38,113 nt of DNA from Bacteroidota bacterium (lineage in GTDB: Bacteria > Bacteroidota > Bacteroidia > UKL13-3). Location of the stretch: the NCBI GenBank assembly GCA_947491825.1, contig CANLLM010000011.1:1-38113 (forward strand), read 5' to 3'. The notes under the pieces are model-generated. The model was not told the origin of the DNA and did not search any database. It saw only the letters and a program-made list of their open reading frames with translations. Of the stretch, positions 18,738 to 33,497 are shown piece by piece. Within the stretch, counting starts at the first letter, position 1. Each line of letters begins with the position of its first letter. Both the position numbers and the translations under genes were made by a program.

Positions 18738-18768
18738 TTGGTATGCTAATTTATTTATTATTGGTATG
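18738..18768 (+). promoter_or_regulatory. putative MocR-type operator: direct repeat TTGGTATG-N15-TTGGTATG (23-bp phase)
   Basis: TTGGTATG at 18738-18745 and 18761-18768. Same core and phase as the repeat beside the MocR gene at about 31.97 kb; 36 bp upstream of the ATG at 18804. Confidence 0.6.
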
Positions 18769-18803: not shown

Positions 18804-19748
18804 ATGAAGAGTTTGAAAACCATCTTGTTTGTGACGCTTGCCACAGGGTTTTTTGCCTTGTGGAGTTCGTGCAAGGAAGACGTTCCATCCATAAACGATT
18901 CACCTACTGAAACTCCCGTTGAACCTGCCAAAATGAAAGGAACAGCTGATTTGTTATTTACAGATTACGCCCCTTTAAAAAACAACCCAATTAGGTTGTA
19001 TTATCATATACCGTTCAATGCAACCACATTAACGCCTATTTTGTTGGTATTTCATGGGACAGATCGCAATGCCCAATATAGTAGAGATGAGATGATCGCT
19101 AATGCCGACAAACTGGGTTTTATTATTATTGCTCCAGAGTTTAGCGACCAATATTATCCTACTGCAGATAGTTATAATTTAGGAAACATATTTGTGGATG
19201 GAGATAATCCTTCACCGACTACGCTAAACCCAGAAAGTATATGGACATTTTCTGCTATTGAGCCTATTTTTAATTTTATGAAAGCGCGCATTGGTAGTTC
19301 ATTAAATTCATATGATGTGTTTGGACACTCTGCGGGTGGACAATTTGTGCACCGTTATTTATTGTACAAGCCATTGGCTAAAATAAACAGGTTGGTAGCC
19401 GCCTCATCTGGTTGGTACACAATGTTTGATAATACCATTAACTTCCCTTATGGTACCAAACAAAGTCCGGTAGAGTCAAGCAACTACAATAACCTTTTTA
19501 ATAAAAAAGTATTTATTATTGTAGGGGAATTGGATACTGACCCTAATTCAAGCGAACTTAGGCATAATGAGATTGTAGATAAACAAGGATTAAACAGGTT
19601 TACAAGGGCACAGTATTTTTATACCCAATCAAGGACCGCAGCCATTCAAAGCAATAGCGCTTTTAATTGGAAGTATTATTCTTTAAAAGGAATAGGTCAT
19701 GATTTTGTAGGAACATCAACGGCTGCGGCCAACTATCTTTATCAATAA
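18804..19748 (+). CDS. alpha/beta-hydrolase lipoprotein
   Basis: Lipobox ALWSSC followed by KED; LVFHGT, GHSAGG nucleophile elbow, and GIGHDF with candidate catalytic His. Confidence 0.8.
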   Translation: MKSLKTILFVTLATGFFALWSSCKEDVPSINDSPTETPVEPAKMKGTADLLFTDYAPLKNNPIRLYYHIPFNATTLTPILLVFHGTDRNAQYSRDEMIANADKLGFIIIAPEFSDQYYPTADSYNLGNIFVDGDNPSPTTLNPESIWTFSAIEPIFNFMKARIGSSLNSYDVFGHSAGGQFVHRYLLYKPLAKINRLVAASSGWYTMFDNTINFPYGTKQSPVESSNYNNLFNKKVFIIVGELDTDPNSSELRHNEIVDKQGLNRFTRAQYFYTQSRTAAIQSNSAFNWKYYSLKGIGHDFVGTSTAAANYLYQ

Positions 19749-19775: not shown

Positions 19776-21062
19776 ATGAAAAGAATACTACAACTATTCG
19801 TGGGCATTGCCCTTACCACAAGTATTTTTGCTCAAACTACTATTGAGAATTTTGCTTACGGAACCATTACAGGTACAAGTGCGGACTCGCTTACCAATCC
19901 AGCATTTGGCGGAGGCAACTGGAGAAGGCACAGCGGTACTGGTGGACCAATTTCATACAAAAGCACTTCGCTTAGCTTTCCTGGCTACTTTTCCTCAGGG
20001 GTTGGCGGATCAGCGGAGTTCAGCTTTAATACAGTAAGTAGAGAAGATGCCAATCGCTCTATAACTCCCTATACTTCTGGAAAAGTTTACATTTCGTTTT
20101 TATTAAACATGTCAAATAATGGCGGAACTGCCGCAGATTATTTTTTCCACCTATTAGACACAAGTGCCATGACCTCTTTCAGGGGTAGACATTACATTAA
20201 AGCAGGAAGTACGGCCAATACCTTTAACATAGGTATCAACAAAGGTTCGTCTGCGACACCTGTATATTCACCTATTAATTACCCTTTGGATACTCCCCTT
20301 TTAGTGGTTGTTAAATACAGCTTTGACCCTAATTTCTTAGATACCATTTCAACGTATATCTTTCCCCTTGGAACAACAATTCCTGCAACAGAACCTAGCA
20401 CTCCAACCATAGTTACTGCAGATGTTTCTACTGCGGATATGGTTACCTTAAATGCTGTAGCCATTCGACAAGGCACCATCGGATCAATGAATGGAAGAAT
20501 TGATGGAATTCGTGTTTCAAATGCTTGGGCTAATACTATTTTATCAGTAAAATTAACATCATTTAATGCTGAGCTAACAGGTACTAACTCTACCCTAATT
20601 TCTTGGACTACCTCAACTGAAATAAACAACAGCGGGTTTGAAATTGAAAGAAGTTTGGATGGCGAGAATTTTGAAATGATAGGATTTGTAAAAGGCGCAG
20701 GAAATACTAATGTTTTAAGTAAGTATGCATTTGAGTATGGTTCGGATGAAGGTGCATTTTATCGTTTAAAACAAATGGATTTTGATGGTAAATTCAATTA
20801 TTCCAATATCATATCGATAACCAATACTAAAGGTAAAGCCACAACAAGTCCAAATCCATTTAACAATCAAATTGAAATTAACGCCAATAACATCATTACA
20901 CATGCTGAAATAATAGACATGATGGGTAAAGTGGTGTTGAGTCAAACAATCAACGACTACTCAGGTAATTTAAACGCTCAAGAATTGCGTAATGGCATCT
21001 ATTTTATTAAGCTATACCAAGGTGAGACTATCATTACCAAAAGAATTATCAAAGCAAACTAA
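19776..21062 (+). CDS. T9SS-secreted protein
   Basis: Signal peptide; SVKLTSFNAELTGTNSTLISWTTSTEINNSGFEIERSLDG linker; C-terminal ELRNGIYFIKLYQGETIITKRIIKAN. Confidence 0.8.
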   Translation: MKRILQLFVGIALTTSIFAQTTIENFAYGTITGTSADSLTNPAFGGGNWRRHSGTGGPISYKSTSLSFPGYFSSGVGGSAEFSFNTVSREDANRSITPYTSGKVYISFLLNMSNNGGTAADYFFHLLDTSAMTSFRGRHYIKAGSTANTFNIGINKGSSATPVYSPINYPLDTPLLVVVKYSFDPNFLDTISTYIFPLGTTIPATEPSTPTIVTADVSTADMVTLNAVAIRQGTIGSMNGRIDGIRVSNAWANTILSVKLTSFNAELTGTNSTLISWTTSTEINNSGFEIERSLDGENFEMIGFVKGAGNTNVLSKYAFEYGSDEGAFYRLKQMDFDGKFNYSNIISITNTKGKATTSPNPFNNQIEINANNIITHAEIIDMMGKVVLSQTINDYSGNLNAQELRNGIYFIKLYQGETIITKRIIKAN

Positions 21063-21118: not shown

Positions 21119-22333
21119 CTATTCATTAATTGCTGTGTTAAATTTGTCATGGTCAAATTCATTCTCGCTTTTAGCAATTACAATAGTGGCGATGGCGTTT
21201 CCAATGAGATTTGTAATCGACCGTCCTTCACTCATAAACTTATCAACCCCCCATAAAAACCCGAGTCCTTCCAAAGGAATTGAATCCATAGAAGCCAACG
21301 TAGAGGCAAGCACCACGAAACCGCTGCCTGTAACTCCTGCTGCACCTTTAGAAGTAATCATTAATACGCCTAGTAATAAAGCCATTTCGCCAAAGCTGAG
21401 AGGCACATTGTAAATTTGCGCTAAAAAAATGGTGGCCATACTGAGGTAAATGGAGGTTCCATCCAAATTAAAGGAGTATCCAACAGGTATAACTAAGCCT
21501 ACTATGGGTTTACTGCACCCGGCTTTCTCTAATTTATGCATAATATTCGGTAAGGCCGTTTCTGATGAAGAGGTACCCAATACAATTAGAATTTCTTCCT
21601 TAATGTATTTTAAAAATTTCCAATTGCTTAAACCATAATATTTCATGATGGCTCCTAGTACCAGAAAAATAAAAATACCCATGGTGATGTATACGCTCAT
21701 GAGTAATTTGCCTAATGGGATTAAGGTATGTAGCCCAAATTTGGATACTGTAAAAGCCATGGCACCAAAAGCGGCAACAGGTGCTAAATACATGACATAC
21801 CTGAGCAATAAAAAGACTTTTTTAGAAGTGTAAGTGAACACTTTAATGATGGGCTCTTTTTTGGTATACAAGTTAAGGACAATACCTACCAATAAGGCTA
21901 CCAATAATATTTGAATGGTGATATTGGATTGGATAAAATTTAACCAACTGAAAGGCACCTTGCCATGCTCGGTGTATTTTGAAACATCGCCAATTGGAAT
22001 TTTTGTACGATTAATATTTCCGGGTTTTAAAATTAGCGCAACTGCGATACCAATGGCCAATGAAAAGGTAGAAATAATTTCGAAGTAGATTAACGATTTT
22101 AAACCTATTCGTCCCACTTTTTTGAGATCTCCCATAAAGCTAATGCCCAACACAATTGTAAAAAAAATGATGGGCGGAATAAACAGTTTAATAACTTGAA
22201 TAAAAGTAGTTCCAATAAACTCCAACTTAAGACCTAACTCAGGATTGTAATGCCCAACACAGATGCCAGAAACAATAGCAACGAGCACATAAAAGGTGAG
22301 GTGTCGGAACATTCCCTTGAATAAAATGGACAT
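21119..22333 (-). CDS. dicarboxylate/amino acid:cation symporter (DAACS, GltP-like)
   Basis: SSSETALPN, PVGYSFNLDGTSIYLSMATIFLAQ, TSKGAAGVTGSGFVVLAST and DKFMSEGRSITNLIGNAIAT are canonical. Confidence 0.93.
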   Translation of the reverse strand: MSILFKGMFRHLTFYVLVAIVSGICVGHYNPELGLKLEFIGTTFIQVIKLFIPPIIFFTIVLGISFMGDLKKVGRIGLKSLIYFEIISTFSLAIGIAVALILKPGNINRTKIPIGDVSKYTEHGKVPFSWLNFIQSNITIQILLVALLVGIVLNLYTKKEPIIKVFTYTSKKVFLLLRYVMYLAPVAAFGAMAFTVSKFGLHTLIPLGKLLMSVYITMGIFIFLVLGAIMKYYGLSNWKFLKYIKEEILIVLGTSSSETALPNIMHKLEKAGCSKPIVGLVIPVGYSFNLDGTSIYLSMATIFLAQIYNVPLSFGEMALLLGVLMITSKGAAGVTGSGFVVLASTLASMDSIPLEGLGFLWGVDKFMSEGRSITNLIGNAIATIVIAKSENEFDHDKFNTAINE

Positions 22334-22390: not shown

Positions 22391-23623
22391 TTAAAAAAGT
22401 AATTGCACATACAAATTACCGATTAAAGATGTAGCTGCAGTGCCCACCTTGAGGTGAGTTAATGAGGCATTTACTTTCAAATTGTTTTCATTAAAATACC
22501 TGCTAAAACCATAAGTAATTTCCTCTTGGTTTTGCAAAACCGAATTTATATTACCAGGAAACTCGCGTATTAATTTAGCATACCTCATATCAACCCCGTA
22601 CTTTTTATTAAGTACATAACCTACTTGTGCATTTAAGCCAGTTCCCAAAGTTAGCCGCTCGCTAATTTCTGTTGTCTTAACAATATCTATACCTGTTTGG
22701 TCAAAATAAGTTCCTTCTTCAATTTTAGCAGTTGCAATAACAAATTCCGTTAATACTGAAAATCCTTTATACTTAATCAAAATATCATAATACAATTTAC
22801 GGTAGTCGGGTAATTTGTTTTGCCCTGCAGTATCATACAATAAAAAACTACCATGGCCTTCTCCTGTCGAGTGACTCGCCCCTTTATTAATGCTTCCAGC
22901 TGCACCTAAGACTATTTTAGGTGTGGATTCATGTTTTATGTCGGCTATCACTTGTTCATTTCCTTCAGAGAAATTACCCAACGGATAAAAATCAATCCTG
23001 CCTGCGTATTTAACGCCACCTAAATCATAATCGGTGCTACTTACGCCAAATGAATTTCGGCCATCGCCAGAGGTAATTGCGGCTTTAGGTGATACAATCA
23101 TTTTGCCCAAATTAAAACTTGATTCAATAAACACCCCAAATTCTCTTCCTGTAGAACTAAATTGTGTACTTAAAATACTTCTATCAATAAACTGAAACTG
23201 AGTTTCCATAATGGACATCTCGCGGTTATTGGTAAAGGCAAGTTGCTGCCCCATGGTAATACTTAATTGTTTGTAGGGCTTATAACAAACCCATGCATCC
23301 ATTAAAGGGGAAGCCAAACTAAAATCTGTTTGTAATAAAAAACTCAGCTTTTCTTTAACTGCTTTACCACTCACATTAAAATAAGTACGTCTTGAGTTTA
23401 AAAAATTGCTTGCTTGAGTTGTACTGTCTTTAATAAAAGCAATTTGGGGCTGAATCATACCGCCAATTTTAACTTGATAATCGCCATTGTTAAAATTGAA
23501 ACGGAGACCCTGGCCCATTTCAAAAGTAGGCTCAACAGATACATTCTCTTGGGCATATAAGCTTACCTTACATGCTATAAGGATTCCTAAAAAAAGGATT
23601 TTGATGTTAGAATAATTTTTCAT
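22391..23623 (-). CDS. OprO/OprP-like porin
   Basis: Signal peptide; GLRFNFNNGDYQVKIGGMIQPQ, SRRTYFNVSGKA, GDGRNSF, LGGVKYAGRIDFYPLG; ends in F. ORF overlaps the M14 gene by 17 bp. Confidence 0.8.
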   Translation of the reverse strand: MKNYSNIKILFLGILIACKVSLYAQENVSVEPTFEMGQGLRFNFNNGDYQVKIGGMIQPQIAFIKDSTTQASNFLNSRRTYFNVSGKAVKEKLSFLLQTDFSLASPLMDAWVCYKPYKQLSITMGQQLAFTNNREMSIMETQFQFIDRSILSTQFSSTGREFGVFIESSFNLGKMIVSPKAAITSGDGRNSFGVSSTDYDLGGVKYAGRIDFYPLGNFSEGNEQVIADIKHESTPKIVLGAAGSINKGASHSTGEGHGSFLLYDTAGQNKLPDYRKLYYDILIKYKGFSVLTEFVIATAKIEEGTYFDQTGIDIVKTTEISERLTLGTGLNAQVGYVLNKKYGVDMRYAKLIREFPGNINSVLQNQEEITYGFSRYFNENNLKVNASLTHLKVGTAATSLIGNLYVQLLF

Positions 23624-25151
23624 TTTTCAGGTATCTATAAATAGGTAAAACAGCATTTAATTGGGTAGGTAATAAACCAAAACGTATAAAGCCATTGGCT
23701 GACTCAGGTTCTAAAACTTCAATGGCCAAACTTGCATTCTCTTGATTCATATCAACAAAGTAAGTACCTTTAGGTAAGGCTAACGATTTGGTATGTACTT
23801 CAGTTTTTACTTTTTGCTCAAACACACCTTCATCCATTTCTACTGCCTTAGAAAAAGAGCTAACCGTATACGTTTCCACCTCTGCAAGAATATTACCAGG
23901 CAATGTTTCAATCTTTAATCCTAGAATGGTTAGTTTTTCAATCAAAGCAGATTGGCTTGCATCCAATAAATAAGCCATAGGGCGTTTGCGGGTTAATACA
24001 GGGCTCGATATTGAGGCATTGTGTATTTCTACATCAATTTGCATTTCGCTTGCTGTTTCCAAATCAATAACTGTTAATGGTTGAGTAGATATTTGCTTTT
24101 TGCTGGTAACTACTGCCAATTCATTAGGGGATAAATCTGGCTTAAGTACTTCTTTTACCTCGTCCACATTATTGTATGCCGAATTTAGGTAGGACATCCC
24201 TATTAAAAATGTAGTTTGAATTCTGCGTTTAAAAGAAGTCCTTCCAAGTCCAACTCCTCTTACCTCTATCAGGCTTGCCACGGCATTAGAAAGCGCATAG
24301 GAAGTAGCACTTGACCGCGCATTATTTGATCCTTGATTGAAGTGAATATCGCCCATCACTTTTTCAGGTGTGAGGTATTCTCTGTGAACTAAACCAGCTT
24401 TATCTAATTCTTCTTTTACATTTTGTACAAATTTTTGATTGGTATAATTTCTTAATTTTTGAGGTACATTTAAATTCCCTGAAGTCATAAACATCACATC
24501 GGGCCTAGAAGTGATGCCCATGATACCGTATTGGGTATACTCCTTGCGGTATGGCCTGTGCTCATGAAAATCAACTGCGATATCAGCATTAAAATCACTA
24601 AATGCCTTTTTAAGAAATATACTTTCCTGAATAATTAATTTAGTTTGATCTCTATTTAAATCGAGGCCATTGGCTGCATACCTGTCTTCTTTTTCATAGC
24701 CATCAATATTGGCCATTGGAACAAGGGCAATTTCCAACCTATTCAACAAATAGCTGTAGTTGGGGTCGTTTAATAACTTATCCAATATGTACAATACTCC
24801 TTCGGTACTGGCCATTTCATCGCCATGTAGGCCCCCTTGAAACCAAACTTTTAACTTTTTTTCGCTGCTGTTTTTATTAAGAGTAACCATAGGAATGGCT
24901 TTCCCCTTTTGGCTTTTCCCAATAAATCGGAAACTCATAACAGAAGAATGCTTTGATTGTTGCATGTTTAAAAAAGCAATCAATTCTTCATAATTGGTAA
25001 AGCCTTTATTTTTTTTGAAGGCAGGTGTATGAATGTCAATTTCTAAATCTGGAAAAAATTTCGAAGTTATCTCTTTAGATTGTGGGTTAAAGTCTTGCAC
25101 AAAACCCCATAATACCATACCAATTAAAATAAATCCTATCCGTTTTTTCAT
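23607..25151 (-). CDS. M14-family zinc carboxypeptidase, exported
   Basis: GGLHGDEMAS, DLNRD, DFHEHRPYRKEY, SLIEVRGVGLG. Likely start at 25151 (MKKRIGF). Confidence 0.85.
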   Translation of the reverse strand: MKKRIGFILIGMVLWGFVQDFNPQSKEITSKFFPDLEIDIHTPAFKKNKGFTNYEELIAFLNMQQSKHSSVMSFRFIGKSQKGKAIPMVTLNKNSSEKKLKVWFQGGLHGDEMASTEGVLYILDKLLNDPNYSYLLNRLEIALVPMANIDGYEKEDRYAANGLDLNRDQTKLIIQESIFLKKAFSDFNADIAVDFHEHRPYRKEYTQYGIMGITSRPDVMFMTSGNLNVPQKLRNYTNQKFVQNVKEELDKAGLVHREYLTPEKVMGDIHFNQGSNNARSSATSYALSNAVASLIEVRGVGLGRTSFKRRIQTTFLIGMSYLNSAYNNVDEVKEVLKPDLSPNELAVVTSKKQISTQPLTVIDLETASEMQIDVEIHNASISSPVLTRKRPMAYLLDASQSALIEKLTILGLKIETLPGNILAEVETYTVSSFSKAVEMDEGVFEQKVKTEVHTKSLALPKGTYFVDMNQENASLAIEVLEPESANGFIRFGLLPTQLNAVLPIYRYLKNEKLF

Positions 25152-26452
25152 TAGAATGATAGTGTTGCAATGATGTTTGTTATCCATTCGTTGTTGGTAA
25201 TTGGTTTACCTATTATATCCAAACTACCGGGCGCTAATTCAACATAAGTAACTGAACCTTGTATTTTAAATCCATAACCGCGAGATATATATTTTGATAA
25301 GCTAAGGGTATAATATTTGGGTCTATTATATACGGTAGGATTGTTTAAAAATGAATTAACCGCAGCATCCAGATAGGTATAGCGAGCATCAACAGAGATT
25401 CTGTTTTTAAATATATATCCACCTTGAATATTGTACCCTTTTCCCAGCATCATTCTTCCTCTCACATAACTTTCAATATTTTCAACTCCATTAACTAAAA
25501 AGGATGTCGAGGTAGTGCCATCATTTCTTACCCTTGTGAAAATTGTTTTAGGAACATTAGCGCTGCTACTCACAAATTCGCCAAGAAAACTAAATCCTTT
25601 ATACTTAAACAAAAAATCAACTCCAAACTTGGTGTAGTCGGGCAATGCATTGTTTCCTGTGCTATCGCGGTATAAAATAGCCCCATTAGATTCTCCTCTT
25701 CTACTACTTACGCCAAAAGCGGTGCTATAAGTAAAGCCAACTAATAATTTAGGCGTTAGCTCCCTCACCATATCTACCTGTCTGAACTGCCCAAAATTAG
25801 TAAACTTACCGAAAGTTAAAACATCCAGTCGTCCGCCATACTTTAACCCTCCTAAATCTTTCCTAAAGGCATTGCTACCATCCCCGGATGTAACAGCCAA
25901 GGCTGGTTTAAAAACAAGATTCTTAGTGGCTTTAAACTCCCCTGATACAAATAGTCCAAAATCTCGAGCAACAGCGAATGCAGAGGTAAGCCTACTTCTT
26001 TCGGGTAATTGCAAGGAATTAGAGGTCATTAATATTTCTAAGTTTTCGGTTGGGCATGAGCTCTGCCCAAACTTAATTTCTAAAAATGGAGTGGGATGGT
26101 AGGCCAACCAAGCATCAAAAAGCGCTCGGCTATTTTCATCGCCAATCTCGGCATTACCGCTAAACTCTGCTTGAAGACGGTATTCCATTTTAAACTTTGG
26201 AAGATTTCCTTCCATCCTAAATCGTAACCTCCTCATTCTAAACCTTAAATAAGGATCAATAGGTGTATCATTCACATATTTTTTAATTTCTAATGATGGT
26301 TGAATATATAAGCCAATATTATAGGTTGAACTGTTTTTATCTGTAAATTTTAGCCCTTCGCCAAACTTATATTTATTCAATACCGGATTTTGAGCCACAC
26401 TTAACTTGGCCAAAACAATAAGCAAAAAGAAAACAATGTATTGTATTTTCAT
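25151..26452 (-). CDS. OprO/OprP-like porin (paralogue of 22391-23623)
   Basis: KFGEGLKFTDKNSSTYNIGLYIQPSLE, RMRRLRFRMEGNL, GDGSNAFRKDLGGLKYGGRLD. Likely start MKIQYIVFF at 26452; shares one base with the M14 start codon (TAATG). Confidence 0.8.
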   Translation of the reverse strand: MKIQYIVFFLLIVLAKLSVAQNPVLNKYKFGEGLKFTDKNSSTYNIGLYIQPSLEIKKYVNDTPIDPYLRFRMRRLRFRMEGNLPKFKMEYRLQAEFSGNAEIGDENSRALFDAWLAYHPTPFLEIKFGQSSCPTENLEILMTSNSLQLPERSRLTSAFAVARDFGLFVSGEFKATKNLVFKPALAVTSGDGSNAFRKDLGGLKYGGRLDVLTFGKFTNFGQFRQVDMVRELTPKLLVGFTYSTAFGVSSRRGESNGAILYRDSTGNNALPDYTKFGVDFLFKYKGFSFLGEFVSSSANVPKTIFTRVRNDGTTSTSFLVNGVENIESYVRGRMMLGKGYNIQGGYIFKNRISVDARYTYLDAAVNSFLNNPTVYNRPKYYTLSLSKYISRGYGFKIQGSVTYVELAPGSLDIIGKPITNNEWITNIIATLSF

Positions 26453-26459
26453 GGTTACG

Positions 26460-27599
26460 TTATTCAAAATGGCCTTTAGCAATAACTTGTGTGTTTTCCA
26501 TCATTTGTTTGCCTCTAGCAAATACATCGATTAGGTTAAACGAAGCGTCTAGGCAACAAAAATCGGCATCGCTTCCAACCTTAATGGTTCCTTTATTTTT
26601 AAGCCCTAGGTTAATAGCAGGATTGATAGTGATAAGTTTGATAGCATCTTCCATTTTCACTTGGCCATGGTTAATTAGCTCCTTTACCTGTAGGTAATTT
26701 TGATTAATTACAGCTCGTCTGAATCCAATTAAATTTCCGTTTTCGTCTAATTTATCCAAGCCAGCATTACCATCACTGCTAAAGGTAATTTTATCAATAG
26801 ATGCGCCTTTTTCAAGCGCATACAATACCGCTTTGTAAGGGTCAGTATACTTAGAAGCACCTGTTGTTAAATCAATCATTCCGCCTAGTTTGGCAAATTC
26901 AATGGCTTGATCAAACAATTCTTTCGTGCGGCCAACATGGGTAGGTGAGATTTGAGCAATTGGGAATTCGTACTCTTGCACCAACCTGAACAATATATCC
27001 ATTTTTGATTTAAGGTTACCAAGGTGAATGTGCAAAATGCCTTTTTTATTAGCAAGCATTCCTCCCACTTTTACAGCCCGTAAAATTCTCAATAAATCTA
27101 ACTCATTGGGGTACGATGATCTGATATCACCAATGGCAATTTTACAACCCAAAACAGGCTCAATAAATACCATATCATCTTGCACCGAATCCATAACATG
27201 AACAGGGTCTAATCCATAATAACCAGTAAACATAAAAGCGGTAATGCCTTCGCTTGATAGCGATTTTGTTTTGGCGAATAGACTCTTTATGCTTCTGGCA
27301 GATCCATCAGTGCCTAACAAACCCACAACGGTGGTGGATCCACACGATATCAAATCTGATACTGAAATTTCTGGTGTCATGGACCCAAATCCGTGTTTAC
27401 CACCTGCACCAATAATATGAATATGCTGATCGATAAAGCCAGGGGTGACAATTTTTCCTTGTGCATCCCATTCATTAAACATCTTATTGGGATTATTGAT
27501 CGAATCTTCTAAGGCAAGAATTTTCTCTGCACCAACCAGAATATCTTTTTTTCCTAAAAATTGCGGAGCAAAAACGGTGGCATTTTTAATTAAAAGCAT
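26460..27599 (-). CDS. iadA: beta-aspartyl-peptidase / isoaspartyl dipeptidase
   Basis: GFIDQHIHIIGAGGKHGFGSMTPE, ISCGSTTVVGLLGTDG, FMFTGYY, HIHLGN, ISPTHVGRT, TFSSDGNAG: full-length IadA signature. Confidence 0.92.
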   Translation of the reverse strand: MLLIKNATVFAPQFLGKKDILVGAEKILALEDSINNPNKMFNEWDAQGKIVTPGFIDQHIHIIGAGGKHGFGSMTPEISVSDLISCGSTTVVGLLGTDGSARSIKSLFAKTKSLSSEGITAFMFTGYYGLDPVHVMDSVQDDMVFIEPVLGCKIAIGDIRSSYPNELDLLRILRAVKVGGMLANKKGILHIHLGNLKSKMDILFRLVQEYEFPIAQISPTHVGRTKELFDQAIEFAKLGGMIDLTTGASKYTDPYKAVLYALEKGASIDKITFSSDGNAGLDKLDENGNLIGFRRAVINQNYLQVKELINHGQVKMEDAIKLITINPAINLGLKNKGTIKVGSDADFCCLDASFNLIDVFARGKQMMENTQVIAKGHFE

Positions 27600-28966
27600 A
27601 AACCAAAATGGTAAATTAATAAGGTGAGTAATACGGTAACAACGGGAATCAAATTCCTTTTAACCACTTGCATAACAGGTACACCTGCAACCTCTGCTGT
27701 TGCAATAAGTACACCTGCAATTGGACTAATGGTCCTACCCATAGAAGCGGAAAGGTTCATGGGTAATAAAATAGAAGTAGTAGATACGCCAAACTGTTTA
27801 GCCACACTCGGAATAAGTGGACCGAAGGCGAAAAAGGCAGCATTGCCGCTTCCCATTAATATGGCAGCAAAAAAGATCATCAGGGTCATTAATATACCAA
27901 TCCCCTTGGCGCCTAATCCTGCGCTTTGCGAAATGGTAATTAGCCCATCCATAAATCCAAGGGCAATTAATCCATTGGCAAAAATTTCTGCTACAATAAT
28001 CAAAGTAACTACAGATTTGAAAATATCGCCCATACCGTCTAGAAACACTTTAAAAGACGCAAAGACTGCTTTCAGGTTTTTAGTTCTGATTAATTCAAAT
28101 AGTAATCCTGCAAACAAACTCAGCAGCATGGCTGTGGTAGTTTCAATGGTAAGCTTAATAGGAAAGATGGCGAACACACCAGAAAAGGTAAGTAATAATA
28201 TAAGCGGTAAAACAGGCAACAAGGCATAAATACCAGGAGCCACCTCTTTTGGTTTAGGCTTTACTTTTACTTCAGTGGGATGTAGCTTATCCTTTTCATC
28301 ATAATATTTGTTAACGAAGAAATAGGTAACCATTAAAACCAGATTTAAAATGATCGCTATAGGGATTTGTAAATTAATAAAATAAGGAACCGTTTCAATT
28401 TGTGCAATTTGAACTGCTGACGCGGTAATAACCGAAGCAGGACCTATGCAAAAGGAAGTGCATCCAGTAATAATGGAAACAGCCGCTATTCTGCTTACAC
28501 CCAAATTAACTAAAATTGGAAAAACCGAGGCCATCAAGAGTAAACCAAAGCCTGCAGCAGATGGAATACATATAAAAATCAGTTGCCCTATAGGAATAAC
28601 AGCTATTGATGCCAGATTGGGGTATTTTTTTAAGACGGCCAATGGTTTTAAAGCTACTCTTACCAATGCTTCTGATGCGCCAATCTTATCCATATAGGCA
28701 ACAAAGCCCCCAATGGTCATAATCATTAAACCTACCCCGGCATTCGTTTTAGAAAACGATTCTTTGATGTATTCAAAAATATCCAAGAAAATAAAGCCAC
28801 TGTTCACTTCAGCCAAGGGAAGTCCTTTTTTAAAAAAACCGGCAATCAACAACATTCCGATACCCGCAATAAGTAAAACCGCCTGAGGGAAAAAATCCTT
28901 AAGTAATAATCTTACCACTAAGGCAATAAAAACGACAGCAATAAAAAGTCCTATATAGTTAATCAT
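27590..28966 (-). CDS. DcuC-family C4-dicarboxylate transporter
   Basis: About 12-14 TM helices; FSKTNAGVGLMIMTIGGFVAYMDKIGAS, FICIPSAAGFGLLLMASVFPIL, MNLSASMGRTISPIAGVLIA. Overlaps iadA by 10 bp. Confidence 0.85.
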   Translation of the reverse strand: MINYIGLFIAVVFIALVVRLLLKDFFPQAVLLIAGIGMLLIAGFFKKGLPLAEVNSGFIFLDIFEYIKESFSKTNAGVGLMIMTIGGFVAYMDKIGASEALVRVALKPLAVLKKYPNLASIAVIPIGQLIFICIPSAAGFGLLLMASVFPILVNLGVSRIAAVSIITGCTSFCIGPASVITASAVQIAQIETVPYFINLQIPIAIILNLVLMVTYFFVNKYYDEKDKLHPTEVKVKPKPKEVAPGIYALLPVLPLILLLTFSGVFAIFPIKLTIETTTAMLLSLFAGLLFELIRTKNLKAVFASFKVFLDGMGDIFKSVVTLIIVAEIFANGLIALGFMDGLITISQSAGLGAKGIGILMTLMIFFAAILMGSGNAAFFAFGPLIPSVAKQFGVSTTSILLPMNLSASMGRTISPIAGVLIATAEVAGVPVMQVVKRNLIPVVTVLLTLLIYHFGLCF

Positions 28967-28976
28967 GGATTATCCC

Positions 28977-29933
28977 TTAAAATGAAGTCCCATCAATTTT
29001 GGTACCTGGTGAGTATTTTTTGGTAGATGGAATTTGGGAGTGCTGAATAAAATCGCCCAGTAAATCGGGATTACGCGTATAAGACTCGTTGGGATTATCT
29101 GAAAGAGGAGTGATGTCATAAGTCAGTACCACATTGTCTGCAGTATCTTTAACGGTTAAAACGTCACCCGCATTGTTAAGGTTTAAATCCCCCGATGTTG
29201 ATTTTTGTATAAGCGCACCCCCAAATGAACCCGTTGGGGTTCCCCCTCCAAAAATAACCAATGCTTTTTGGGGTTGTAAAATGGTGCCTGCAGGAATTAA
29301 GTGATTGGGTGTGCCAGAGGCTAAACCTCCAGCATCAAATATTTTATACCCACTAAGATCAATTACTTTTGTTGAATAATTAATTAATTCAATAAATTCA
29401 TCTCCAGCTTGCGTATAAACACCGTCTCCGTTAGCATCTCCGTCTAAACCAACATTCGATGGATCATATAAAATCTCATTTAAAATTAAGTTTACAATTG
29501 AAGGCACATCATCATCTTCAATGTTAATATTGATAACTTGAATGCCATCTTCTCCTCCACCAAATACAGTATCTACAGCGATTTTGATATCTTCTATGCC
29601 TTCTTTTATGGTATCTTGAATAGCCAATAAATTAGTGCTGTTGGAAATGTTTCCCGCAGGAATGATTAAGGTAAGGTTTGAACTGTAATCTTGTCCAAAG
29701 GTTGCCTTTCCGGTATATAACAATTTCACCTCTACATCATTGGTAGAAACCTTTGTCAATGTAGCCGTTAACTCAGCCGATCCGCCTGCTTCGGCAATGG
29801 CTAGTGTATTAAATGACAAACTCACTAAACTACCGCTATCTGGCAACACAATGGGTTTAACATCATCTGTTTTGCATGATCCAAAAATGAAAAGGAAACA
29901 AATCCCAGTCAAAAAATTAAATTTTCCCTTCAT
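28977..29933 (-). CDS. lipoprotein with Calx-beta-like and lamin-tail (LTD) domains
   Basis: Lipobox FIFGSC followed by KTDD; Calx-beta-like mid-region; LNEILYDPSNVGLDGDANGDGVYTQAGDEFIELIN LTD. Confidence 0.8.
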   Translation of the reverse strand: MKGKFNFLTGICFLFIFGSCKTDDVKPIVLPDSGSLVSLSFNTLAIAEAGGSAELTATLTKVSTNDVEVKLLYTGKATFGQDYSSNLTLIIPAGNISNSTNLLAIQDTIKEGIEDIKIAVDTVFGGGEDGIQVININIEDDDVPSIVNLILNEILYDPSNVGLDGDANGDGVYTQAGDEFIELINYSTKVIDLSGYKIFDAGGLASGTPNHLIPAGTILQPQKALVIFGGGTPTGSFGGALIQKSTSGDLNLNNAGDVLTVKDTADNVVLTYDITPLSDNPNESYTRNPDLLGDFIQHSQIPSTKKYSPGTKIDGTSF

Positions 29934-29940
29934 AAATACT

Positions 29941-31890
29941 TTATTGAGCTATGTTACTTTTAATGATTTTATAGCGAATCCATTCCTCATTTATTTTTAC
30001 ATCCAATAAATAAAGGCCAGTTTGCAATGCCTTCAAATCAACTTGATTGGATTCGATTTTTCCTGATTGAATCAATTTACCGTGAATAGAATATACATTG
30101 TAGTTACTTACAGCCTGATTGGATTGAATATGCAGTATATCTAAAACCGGGTTAGGATAGCATTTTAAAGATGCATTTGGGGGTTGATTTAATCCAGTAG
30201 TTTGACCCGTAATGGTTATGCTTTTAGTTCCTTTAACACCCGCTGTATCAATTGCAGTTGCAGTAACAATAACCGTTCCGTTTGAGAGTGCTTTTAAGAG
30301 CCCATCGCTAGTTATGATAGCAATATCTTCATCATTCACAGACCAAGAAACCTCTCTGATTTCTGCTGTTTCAGGAAACACATTTGCAATCATCTGAAGG
30401 GTACCACCATTTTGACTTATAGTTGATGCATTTCCTTCGCTGGTAACTTCAATAGCTGTTACTTTTATGAGTGTGCAAATTGGGAAAATACATTTAGAAT
30501 TTAAAATGGTTGCAGAACTATCCGTGCAATTTAGACCCCCAAAAATCCATGTGCCTTGGCCATTCTTAAATGCCCATGATCCAGTGTATTCCCATGGTTG
30601 ACCTGTTCCATTTTGGTTTATATCGCCAAATGTTTCCACGACTTCTCCTACCTTAAATAGTTCAACAGCATCATTTCCATTATGATTAATAACACCTACA
30701 GTATCCACTAAAACAATATTAAAATTTGACCAGCAACTGCTCATATAAGCTGCTAAAGCAGCAGAATCCCGCACTACCAAAATTTGGCTTCCTTTGCTCA
30801 CCGAAATTTCCGGAAAACGATATTCTTGGCCATTAGTACCTCCTCCATTATTCGCTATTCCTAAGCCATATATACTTAAATTAGGTATCAGGGTATCAGC
30901 AACAACAAATATGGACTTACCCGATACACCTTGGATAGGTGTAATAAAATCTGTAACTCCTTTTAAAGATAAATTGTTGGTACATGAACTGCATGATTCA
31001 AAACAAGCACTTTTTAATATGCTATCACCTTTCAAAATAAGATACCTAGTAATAATTGAACCGCTTAATTGAGTGCAGGCTCCCACCGTTAAAAATTGCT
31101 CTTGCAAAAAATTGCTTCCTAATTTTAATTTGAACACATACTCAAGCGTATCTTTTAAAACAGGTATGCTTACTTCATATAACCCATCTTTGTTTACATC
31201 CAGCATGGGATTACAATTATTGCATTGTTGGTTAAAGTTACCTACTACAAATACACTGTCAAAAGTGCCATTAAATTTATTAAGGTCTAATTTAAAAGTT
31301 ACCAATTTGGTGACTAGAGCAACAAAACTAGTTCCGTCTACTTTAGTGCCTGGTGAAAACTTCCTTGTATTAATGGAATTATGCTGCACAAAAGAGCCTG
31401 TTAGATCCGGGTTTCGGGTATAAGACTCATTGGGATTATTGGAGAGTACATCGGAATTAAATGTCAAGATGGTATTCCCCAATTCGTTTTTTATTACTAT
31501 AATCTCTCCAGTGTTGGCTAGGCTTAATCCGCTTAATCCGGTATCAGCCAGCACGGTTGCGCCACCAAAAAAACCAATGGGTGTTCCACCTCCAAAAATA
31601 ACCAATGCTGATTGAGGTTGTATAATTGTTCCAATAGGAAAAACATATACCAAAGAACCAATAATTGTATCATCCCAAATTTGATATCCGCTCATGTTCA
31701 AAGGGCTGCTACCCGTATTAACAAATTCTATAAATTCATCTTTAGTTTGATCGTATAAACCATCTCCGTTGGCATCGCCTTCTAGAGCAATATTGGAAGG
31801 ATCATACAATACTTCATTAATAACAAGTTGGGCATTTACACTTACGCATGTTAAAAAAGCAAAAAGAAATAAGAGTATATTTTTTTTCAT
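29941..31890 (-). CDS. T9SS-secreted lamin-tail-domain protein with CBM-like and BIG2-like modules
   Basis: Signal peptide (start MKKNILLF at 31890); LTD; VFVVGNFNQQCNNCNPMLDVNKDGLYEV module; ATISQNGGTLQM..W.VNDEDIAIITSDGLLKALSNGTVIVTATA BIG2-like module; C-terminal CYPNPVLDILHI domain. Confidence 0.8.
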   Translation of the reverse strand: MKKNILLFLFAFLTCVSVNAQLVINEVLYDPSNIALEGDANGDGLYDQTKDEFIEFVNTGSSPLNMSGYQIWDDTIIGSLVYVFPIGTIIQPQSALVIFGGGTPIGFFGGATVLADTGLSGLSLANTGEIIVIKNELGNTILTFNSDVLSNNPNESYTRNPDLTGSFVQHNSINTRKFSPGTKVDGTSFVALVTKLVTFKLDLNKFNGTFDSVFVVGNFNQQCNNCNPMLDVNKDGLYEVSIPVLKDTLEYVFKLKLGSNFLQEQFLTVGACTQLSGSIITRYLILKGDSILKSACFESCSSCTNNLSLKGVTDFITPIQGVSGKSIFVVADTLIPNLSIYGLGIANNGGGTNGQEYRFPEISVSKGSQILVVRDSAALAAYMSSCWSNFNIVLVDTVGVINHNGNDAVELFKVGEVVETFGDINQNGTGQPWEYTGSWAFKNGQGTWIFGGLNCTDSSATILNSKCIFPICTLIKVTAIEVTSEGNASTISQNGGTLQMIANVFPETAEIREVSWSVNDEDIAIITSDGLLKALSNGTVIVTATAIDTAGVKGTKSITITGQTTGLNQPPNASLKCYPNPVLDILHIQSNQAVSNYNVYSIHGKLIQSGKIESNQVDLKALQTGLYLLDVKINEEWIRYKIIKSNIAQ

Positions 31891-31955: not shown

Positions 31956-31963
31956 TATATTTG
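31956..31963 (+). promoter_or_regulatory. candidate -7 element TATATTTG for the MocR gene
   Basis: Exact TAnnTTTG match. A start about 5-7 bp downstream would fall inside the first ATACCAA repeat. Confidence 0.45.
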
Positions 31964-32004
31964 GCATACCAATTATTTAATTATTAAAATACCAATTATG
32001 CCAA
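31961..32004. promoter_or_regulatory. putative MocR operator: ATACCAATTAT direct repeat (31966-31976 and 31989-31999) bounded by inverted TTGGCATA/TATGCCAA
   Basis: Two identical 11-bp direct repeats with 23-bp phase between divergent genes, the second overlapping the regulator ATG. Confidence 0.65.
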
Positions 32005-33497
32005 TATTGTTGAAGAAAATAATTACAGAGTACCAAAACAACACCATAAAAACAGAATCAACAAAAGAAGATAAGTTGTATATTAGGTTATATAAATTGC
32101 TTTCCAAGATGATTATCAAAATGGAAGTGCCAGGAAATACATTATTACCACCTACCCGAAAGTTGGCTGATGCATTAAGCGTTTCTAGGAGCACCGTGCT
32201 TAGGGCTTATGATATTTTGTTATTAGATGGCCTCATTATTTCTTTGAAGAGCTCAGGCTACCAGGTAAAACCAAAAGAGGAGAAAAAGATTAATTTAAGC
32301 CCTGAGCAAAAAATAGATGATAAGCAGCTCTCGGAGATAGGAAAATCTTTTTTGAAATTAAGTGATTCAAATGTTTCCAATAGCAGAGAAAGTTTGGCAT
32401 TTAGTCCGGGGTTACCTCCATTAGATATTTTCCCGGTGGCGCAATGGAAGAACCTAACCAACATGTATTGGAAAGAAATCAAGTTTTCCAACCTATCCTA
32501 TGCGCCATCTTCGGGTATAGAAAAATTGAAATTGAACATTGCTCATTATTTAAACCTAACCCGCAATATTCAATGCAATCCGGATCAAGTATTCATCGTG
32601 TCTGGTTCATTGCAATCATTATATTTAACAGGAACTTTGTTGGTAAATCCGGGAGAAACTGTTTGTATTGAAAATCCAACATTTCCGAATGTGAATGCGG
32701 TATTCAAAGGCCTAATGGCCAATACTATTGGTATACCTTTGGACTCGAAAGGCATTAGCACAGACTTTCTAAAAAAGGCTATGCTTAAACCTAAGTTAAT
32801 CCATGTTACACCATCCTGTCATTATCCCCTAGGCATTAAAATGCCAATTGATAGACGGATTGAACTATTGGCAGTTGCTGATGAAAAAAATGCGTTTATC
32901 GTTGAGAATGATTACGAACATGAATTAAACAATTGGGACAACCCCATACCTTCCTTATTCAGCCTTGATAAACAACAAAAAACTATTTATCTGGGGACAT
33001 TTAATCGCATACTGCACCCTTCATTAAGAATTGGTTACTTGGTTGTTCCACAAAAACTTAAATTACCTTTAGAGCTGATGTTAAAACACTCCCATCGCTT
33101 TGTGGCTCCTTCCATACAATTTGTATTAAATCAGTTTATAGAAAAAAAACTTTTACATAATCACCTCAATAACCTCATCAATGTTACCCGTGAACGGAAA
33201 TTGTTTTTTTCCCAAACTTTCAACGAAGTTTTTAAGCGGTCGGGATTTGCGATTAATCCCAGTGATGTTCTCAGTCTTCAATCGCTCATAACATTTAATA
33301 ATGGTTGGCTTGATAAAGACCTAGTAACTTTGTTAAATGAGCACAACCTGAGTACCCATTCCTACCAAAAATGTTTTGTATCGAAATCAACAGAACAAGG
33401 ACTAATTTTAGGCCATTGTTCAATCCAAAAACACATTATTAAAAATAAACTGGTTAGAATGTTTTCCACTATTCAGCAGTACCCATCCAACGAATAG
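31998..33497 (+). CDS. MocR/GabR-type transcriptional regulator (GntR wHTH plus class I aminotransferase-like domain)
   Basis: PPTRKLADALSVSRSTVLRAYDILLLDGLI wHTH; aminotransferase domain with IVENDYEHELNNW...TIYLGTFNRILHPSLRIGYLVVP. Confidence 0.92.
   Translation: MPILLKKIITEYQNNTIKTESTKEDKLYIRLYKLLSKMIIKMEVPGNTLLPPTRKLADALSVSRSTVLRAYDILLLDGLIISLKSSGYQVKPKEEKKINLSPEQKIDDKQLSEIGKSFLKLSDSNVSNSRESLAFSPGLPPLDIFPVAQWKNLTNMYWKEIKFSNLSYAPSSGIEKLKLNIAHYLNLTRNIQCNPDQVFIVSGSLQSLYLTGTLLVNPGETVCIENPTFPNVNAVFKGLMANTIGIPLDSKGISTDFLKKAMLKPKLIHVTPSCHYPLGIKMPIDRRIELLAVADEKNAFIVENDYEHELNNWDNPIPSLFSLDKQQKTIYLGTFNRILHPSLRIGYLVVPQKLKLPLELMLKHSHRFVAPSIQFVLNQFIEKKLLHNHLNNLINVTRERKLFFSQTFNEVFKRSGFAINPSDVLSLQSLITFNNGWLDKDLVTLLNEHNLSTHSYQKCFVSKSTEQGLILGHCSIQKHIIKNKLVRMFSTIQQYPSNE

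Follow-up and report, generated by a model that had tools for sequence, protein, structure and literature searches.

A MocR/GabR-type regulator with both hallmark PLP residues replaced, encoded in a beta-aspartyl locus of Bacteroidota

The window, i.e. the whole stretch of 38,113 nucleotides of a Bacteroidota genome that we have analysed, encodes a MocR/GabR-type regulator of 499 aa without the canonical lysine (positions 31998–33497, forward strand), and divergent from it runs an operon on the reverse strand. The first operon gene (29941–31890; assigned by Pfam and by its conserved layout) encodes a surface protein with a lamin-tail domain, a Big_2 domain and a T9SS tail. It is followed on the same strand by genes for a lamin-tail-domain protein with a lipoprotein-like N-terminus (28977–29933; PF00932, conserved order), a DcuC-family C4-dicarboxylate carrier (27590–28966; PF03606 E = 2e-77, NF037994 362 bits), the beta-aspartyl (isoaspartyl) dipeptidase IadA (26460–27599; TIGR01975 383 bits against a cut-off of 331, PDB 7cdh E = 1e-85), a conserved secreted cassette protein with neither a Pfam nor a PDB sequence match (25151–26452), an M14 zinc carboxypeptidase or AstE-AspA-like hydrolase (23607–25187; PF00246 E = 6e-22, PF24827 E = 4e-7), a second conserved secreted cassette protein without a Pfam match (22391–23623) and an SDF-family dicarboxylate/amino-acid symporter of the DctA/GltP type (21119–22333; PF00375 E = 1.7e-93). 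Both secreted cassette proteins are recognised by conserved order; that they are outer-membrane channels is a guess.

Further along, on the forward strand, lie a homologue of PahZ1, i.e. poly(aspartic acid) hydrolase-1 (18804–19748; an alpha/beta hydrolase with the motif GHSAGGQF; 6ve6 E = 9.1e-55, 9o7u E = 1e-49), and a T9SS-tailed secreted protein paired with it (19776–21062; Por_Secre_tail, with synteny at loci L011, L013 and L135–L138); in several other families, the hydrolase gene is followed by a DASS/citrate-type transporter gene instead. PahZ1 cleaves the beta-Asp amide bonds of synthetic poly(Asp) (PMC4456602), the polymer on which it has been characterised; the homology, at E 1e-55, is not enough to assign a substrate here. 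Cyanophycin has been considered as the main substrate and is disfavoured: the window cassette has the PahZ1 homologue and contains no cphA-, cphB- or iaaA-like genes, which makes beta-poly(Asp) or beta-aspartyl peptides the better fit, though a use of cyanophycin dipeptides is conceivable. Another contig of the same genome (L044, G000:C101) carries cphA-like (cyanophycin-synthetase-like), cphB-like (Peptidase_S51, cyanophycinase-type) and iaaA-like (isoaspartyl aminopeptidase-like) genes together, the first and the last of which were named by eye from sequence.

The regulator has been characterised by its open reading frame, Pfam, NCBIfam, a PDB sequence search, AlphaFold and Foldseek. A GntR winged helix-turn-helix (wHTH) occupies residues 28–90 (PF00392 E = 1e-8), and the aminotransferase-like effector domain spans about residues 130–490, with the Pfam scan placing Aminotran_1_2 (PF00155) at residues 164–366. 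The AlphaFold model is of moderate confidence (mean pLDDT 77); its top Foldseek match is Bacillus subtilis GabR (4n0b, E 2e-30), and its comparison with the GabR effector domain 5x03_A gives a TMt of 0.80. With both the wHTH and the aminotransferase-like fold present in sequence and predicted model, the protein is a MocR by descent and architecture, in agreement with the initial annotation, in which the fold and the DNA-binding domain were said to look intact.

The assignment to a named subfamily is less direct. The regulator falls below the GabR model NF052285 (225 bits against a cut-off of 600), and the gabTD locus that would identify a GabR is not what surrounds it, its own locus being beta-aspartyl. 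Among the NCBIfam models listed, only PdxR (NF052282) exceeded its cut-off, by a margin of 5 bits (324.8 against 320), and automatic annotation may therefore name the protein PdxR. Such a name would probably be wrong, as the locus argues against it: the window proteins scanned against Pfam include no B6-synthesis families, and both intergenic operators described below lie in the beta-aspartyl locus. In addition, the position of the PLP-binding lysine is held by an arginine (Arg337). PdxR (PDB 7pq9) shares the architecture of the regulator, but it keeps the lysine in the alignment and controls B6 synthesis.

A phylogenetic footprint has revealed a predicted operator at the start of the regulator gene (operator 1, 31966–31999, forward strand), formed by the direct repeat ATACCAATTAT-N12-ATACCAATTAT with a 23-bp period, the second copy of which overlaps the ATG of the regulator. 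Shuffling yields an expectation of 0 for this pattern, and when up to 3 mismatches are allowed, the full pattern still has this one match only in the genome. Directly abutting operator 1 in the aligned sequences is TATATTTG (31956–31963, forward strand), an element of the type TAnnTTTG, which fits the -7 element of Bacteroidota promoters. When the intergenic region between regulator and divergent operon is aligned for the window and for its relatives at family level, the arrangement ATACCAATTAT-N12-ATACCAATTATG is nearly unchanged, with a TAnnTTTG-like element directly 5' of the first copy; sites in other families differ by a few bases.

A genome pattern match places a second predicted operator, ATACCA-N17-ATACCA (operator 2, 18739–18767, reverse strand), 36 bp upstream of the pahZ1-like gene. 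The exact pattern occurs six times in the genome, and only two occurrences are intergenic: at the regulator start and upstream of the hydrolase; the occurrences at L127, L130, L131 and L132 have been rejected as operators, as they lie inside open reading frames and probably arose by chance. The same exact half-site pair precedes the orthologous hydrolase gene in four further genomes (L135–L138), where the hydrolase is 12–13 kb away, and a site of this type is found upstream of the hydrolase in most other clade loci that were checked. The motif of GabR is a direct repeat with ATACCA as its half-site (PMC4494728), and MocR operators commonly consist of direct repeats spaced by two or three helical turns (PMC5320631); the predicted sites thus have the direct-repeat, autoregulatory and locus-linked arrangement of MocR operators.

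The residues of the effector pocket have been matched to GabR (4n0b) by phmmer and profile alignments, with the functional roles taken from the literature (PMC6917764). The regulator segment EN304DYEHE aligns on ED279DYDSE of GabR and GTFNR337 on GTFSK312: Asn304 (codon AAT, 32907–32909) is located at the position of Asp279, which contacts the pyridine N1, and Arg337 (codon CGC, 33006–33008) at the position of Lys312, which forms the internal aldimine, with a spacing of 33 in both proteins. Seven residues further, Arg344 (33027–33029) retains the position of the phosphate-binding Arg319 (PMC6917764, Table 2). The initial annotation had proposed this double substitution in a GabR-type protein, with the same codons, spacing and phosphate-contact-like arginine, and the alignment bears it out in each respect. 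A loss of the C-terminal RLGF-type arginine has been rejected as a third hallmark: GabR itself has Ile there (alignment; PMC6677901), so that the lack of this arginine is ordinary for the GabR cluster.

Scans of genome collections recovered relatives of 43–77% identity. In the clade defined here, the region is covered by 21 distinct sequences, which come from six family-level groups of Bacteroidota and are as little as 40% identical in pairs. All 21 have both Asn and Arg (motifs END[YF] and GTFNR), while the other aligned MocRs (n = 41) have Asp in 41 and Lys in 39. Arg337 is encoded across the clade by all six Arg codons (CGC, AGA, AGG, CGT, CGA, CGG) and Asn304 by both Asn codons (AAT, AAC), which indicates that the residues are held by selection. 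A pseudogene, sequencing error or assembly artefact might be suspected, given that the window genome is a fragmented assembly of 88% completeness, but 21 distinct sequences, taken from independent assemblies and with the frame intact in nearly all of them, share the two residues; this already refutes the explanation, to which we assign next to no probability. The IadA cassette, whole or in part, is present beside all clade members for which there is enough flanking sequence, and this holds for each of the six families; nearly all clade loci have the two lamin-tail-domain proteins (in the window, 29941–31890 and 28977–29933) at the head of the operon. Within the genus of the window genome (G000–G008), just two of the nine genomes carry the regulator, and the locus is perhaps mobile or often lost.

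The nearest outgroup consists of three orthologs from another class of the phylum (L092–L094; G586, G552 and G499), about 37–38% identical, which retain EDDY and GTFNK. In a tree of 61 sequences, the Asn/Arg clade and the group that unites it with these sisters each have a support of 100/100; as the sisters keep Asp and Lys, the replacements Asp>Asn and Lys>Arg are most simply placed on one stem, to which Tyr205>Phe (in GabR numbering) and three changes at query positions 206 (His>Gln), 364 (Gln>His) and 366 (Leu>His) also belong. The sisters share FNxxLHPS and K458 with the clade and differ from it in their EDD and FNK motifs and in their amino-acid-gene neighbours, i.e. class-IV aminotransferase, DAP-dehydrogenase-like, M20 and amidohydrolase genes; the beta-aspartyl locus is absent beside them in the stretches read. 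We had considered the loss of the lysine to be confined to the Asn/Arg clade, and this has been rejected, as Arg at the Lys position also occurs in L081 and L082. These two Bacteroidota MocRs (G316 and G238) keep EDD and are located elsewhere in the tree; L082 also lacks the phosphate Arg, having Gly there.

With the equivalent of Lys312 lost, no internal aldimine can form at the canonical site, and by its lysine and aspartate positions the aligned protein is not a PLP-Schiff-base regulator. Another lysine in the pocket has been looked for: the alignment contains none at position 312, and Lys458 (33369–33371) is located at the position of GabR Arg430. An aldimine that has moved to Lys458 or to some other lysine is very improbable: Lys458 does occupy a ligand-contact position in 19 of 20 clade members, but all three Asp/Lys-bearing sisters have it as well, beside their Lys312 equivalent, so that it is older than the substitution and not its replacement; moreover, the remaining clade member has Ala there, and the GabR counterpart contacts the GABA carboxylate (PMC6917764).

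The rest of the pocket is well preserved. The stacking aromatics F229, Y306 and Y276 are kept together with T334 and the phosphate-type Arg344; Tyr306 (32913–32915), at the position of the PLP-stacking Tyr281, is Tyr in 20 of 21 members and Phe in one. N231, Y276, N304, R337, R344, H366 and R367 are invariant in the clade down to 40% identity, and Thr334, like Tyr276, Asn231 and Arg344, is kept throughout it. It would be odd for the aromatic cage, T334 and Arg344 all to be kept if PLP never enters. The initial suggestion of an effector domain that senses a ligand without PLP chemistry is thus partly upheld: the internal aldimine is lost with the canonical lysine, but PLP itself may still bind, given the retained cage and Arg344.

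These same residues, invariant or nearly so, lend weight to the possibility that PLP or PMP continues to serve the regulator, bound without a covalent link by Arg344, the aromatic sandwich and Asn304, and that the regulator senses this compound or the adducts that it forms with amino acids. An asparagine is able to hydrogen-bond a neutral pyridine nitrogen, which counts in favour of this reading. We nevertheless regard it as unlikely, though the strongest of the alternatives, because neither Lys nor Asp is left at its position, all members have Phe in place of the stacking Tyr205, and the cassette genes beside the clade include no B6 genes. A lysine mutant of another MocR also counts against it: EnuR Lys302His loses PLP attachment and the inducer response and represses constitutively (PMC8739950). 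In MpaR, reporter output is abolished by Lys314Ala (PMC10790758), and from both mutants it follows that the loss of the lysine would not be tolerated in an ordinary PLP sensor. The constitutive repression by the EnuR mutant is, in turn, a point for an effector domain that has become a mere dimerisation platform, i.e. a ligand-blind constitutive autorepressor or regulator; a dead pocket should decay, however, and as this one is strictly conserved to 40% identity, such a state is quite improbable.

The reading that we prefer, at a probability of roughly 0.56, is that the regulator is a dedicated autoregulating switch for the use of beta-aspartyl polymers or peptides, with an effector pocket that has no internal aldimine. 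As a descendant of the GabR-type MocR regulators, it would bind two ATACCA boxes head to tail, as GabR does, and would block its own promoter, the boxes covering the -7 flank and the start codon; from the position of the boxes and by analogy with GabR, the ligand-bound form may activate the flanking operons. In the absence of an aldimine lysine at the canonical site, the ligand would bind non-covalently and not through a PLP external aldimine. The most natural ligand, we infer, is an acidic compound of the pathway: the regulator may read aspartate, a beta-aspartyl dipeptide or a C4-dicarboxylate, with Arg337, Arg344 and Lys458 as candidate anion contacts. We put at about even odds a bolder reading, in which one lineage of MocR regulators has given up the covalent B6 cofactor. 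Two replacements on one branch, together with a regulon switch away from amino-acid genes and towards the use of beta-aspartyl polymers, would have turned a PLP-aldimine sensor into a cofactor-free one, and living orthologs would still show both states.

Compared with GabR, the regulator shares the wHTH and AAT-fold architecture, the GabR-cluster residues (an aromatic at 250, Tyr281 and a hydrophobic residue at 446) and, as predicted, the ATACCA direct repeats and the divergent layout with autoregulation; it differs in Lys312>Arg, Asp279>Asn, Tyr205>Phe, Arg207>Asn, Arg430>Lys and His114>Pro, and in having a beta-aspartyl locus instead of a GABA locus. The PahZ1 systems of Sphingomonas KT-1 and Pedobacter KP-2 have the homologous hydrolase (E 9e-55); neither a regulator nor an IadA/DcuC cassette has been found for PahZ1 loci in the open-access literature that was searched. 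This open-access literature also yielded no report of a naturally Lys-less MocR.

In a survey of 1331 aminotransferase-like domains, Asp279 and Lys312 were conserved across all of its clusters (PMC6677901). MocR regulators are described as PLP-dependent, and here both residues are fixed otherwise in one clade; with this clade beside an Asp/Lys sister, the loss of the cofactor by a cofactor-based sensor becomes testable, and the fold, as the clade suggests, is no sufficient ground for assuming PLP dependence. The locus itself speaks for a natural pathway of beta-linked poly-aspartate that is under regulation, the hydrolase of which is otherwise known from work with a synthetic polymer.
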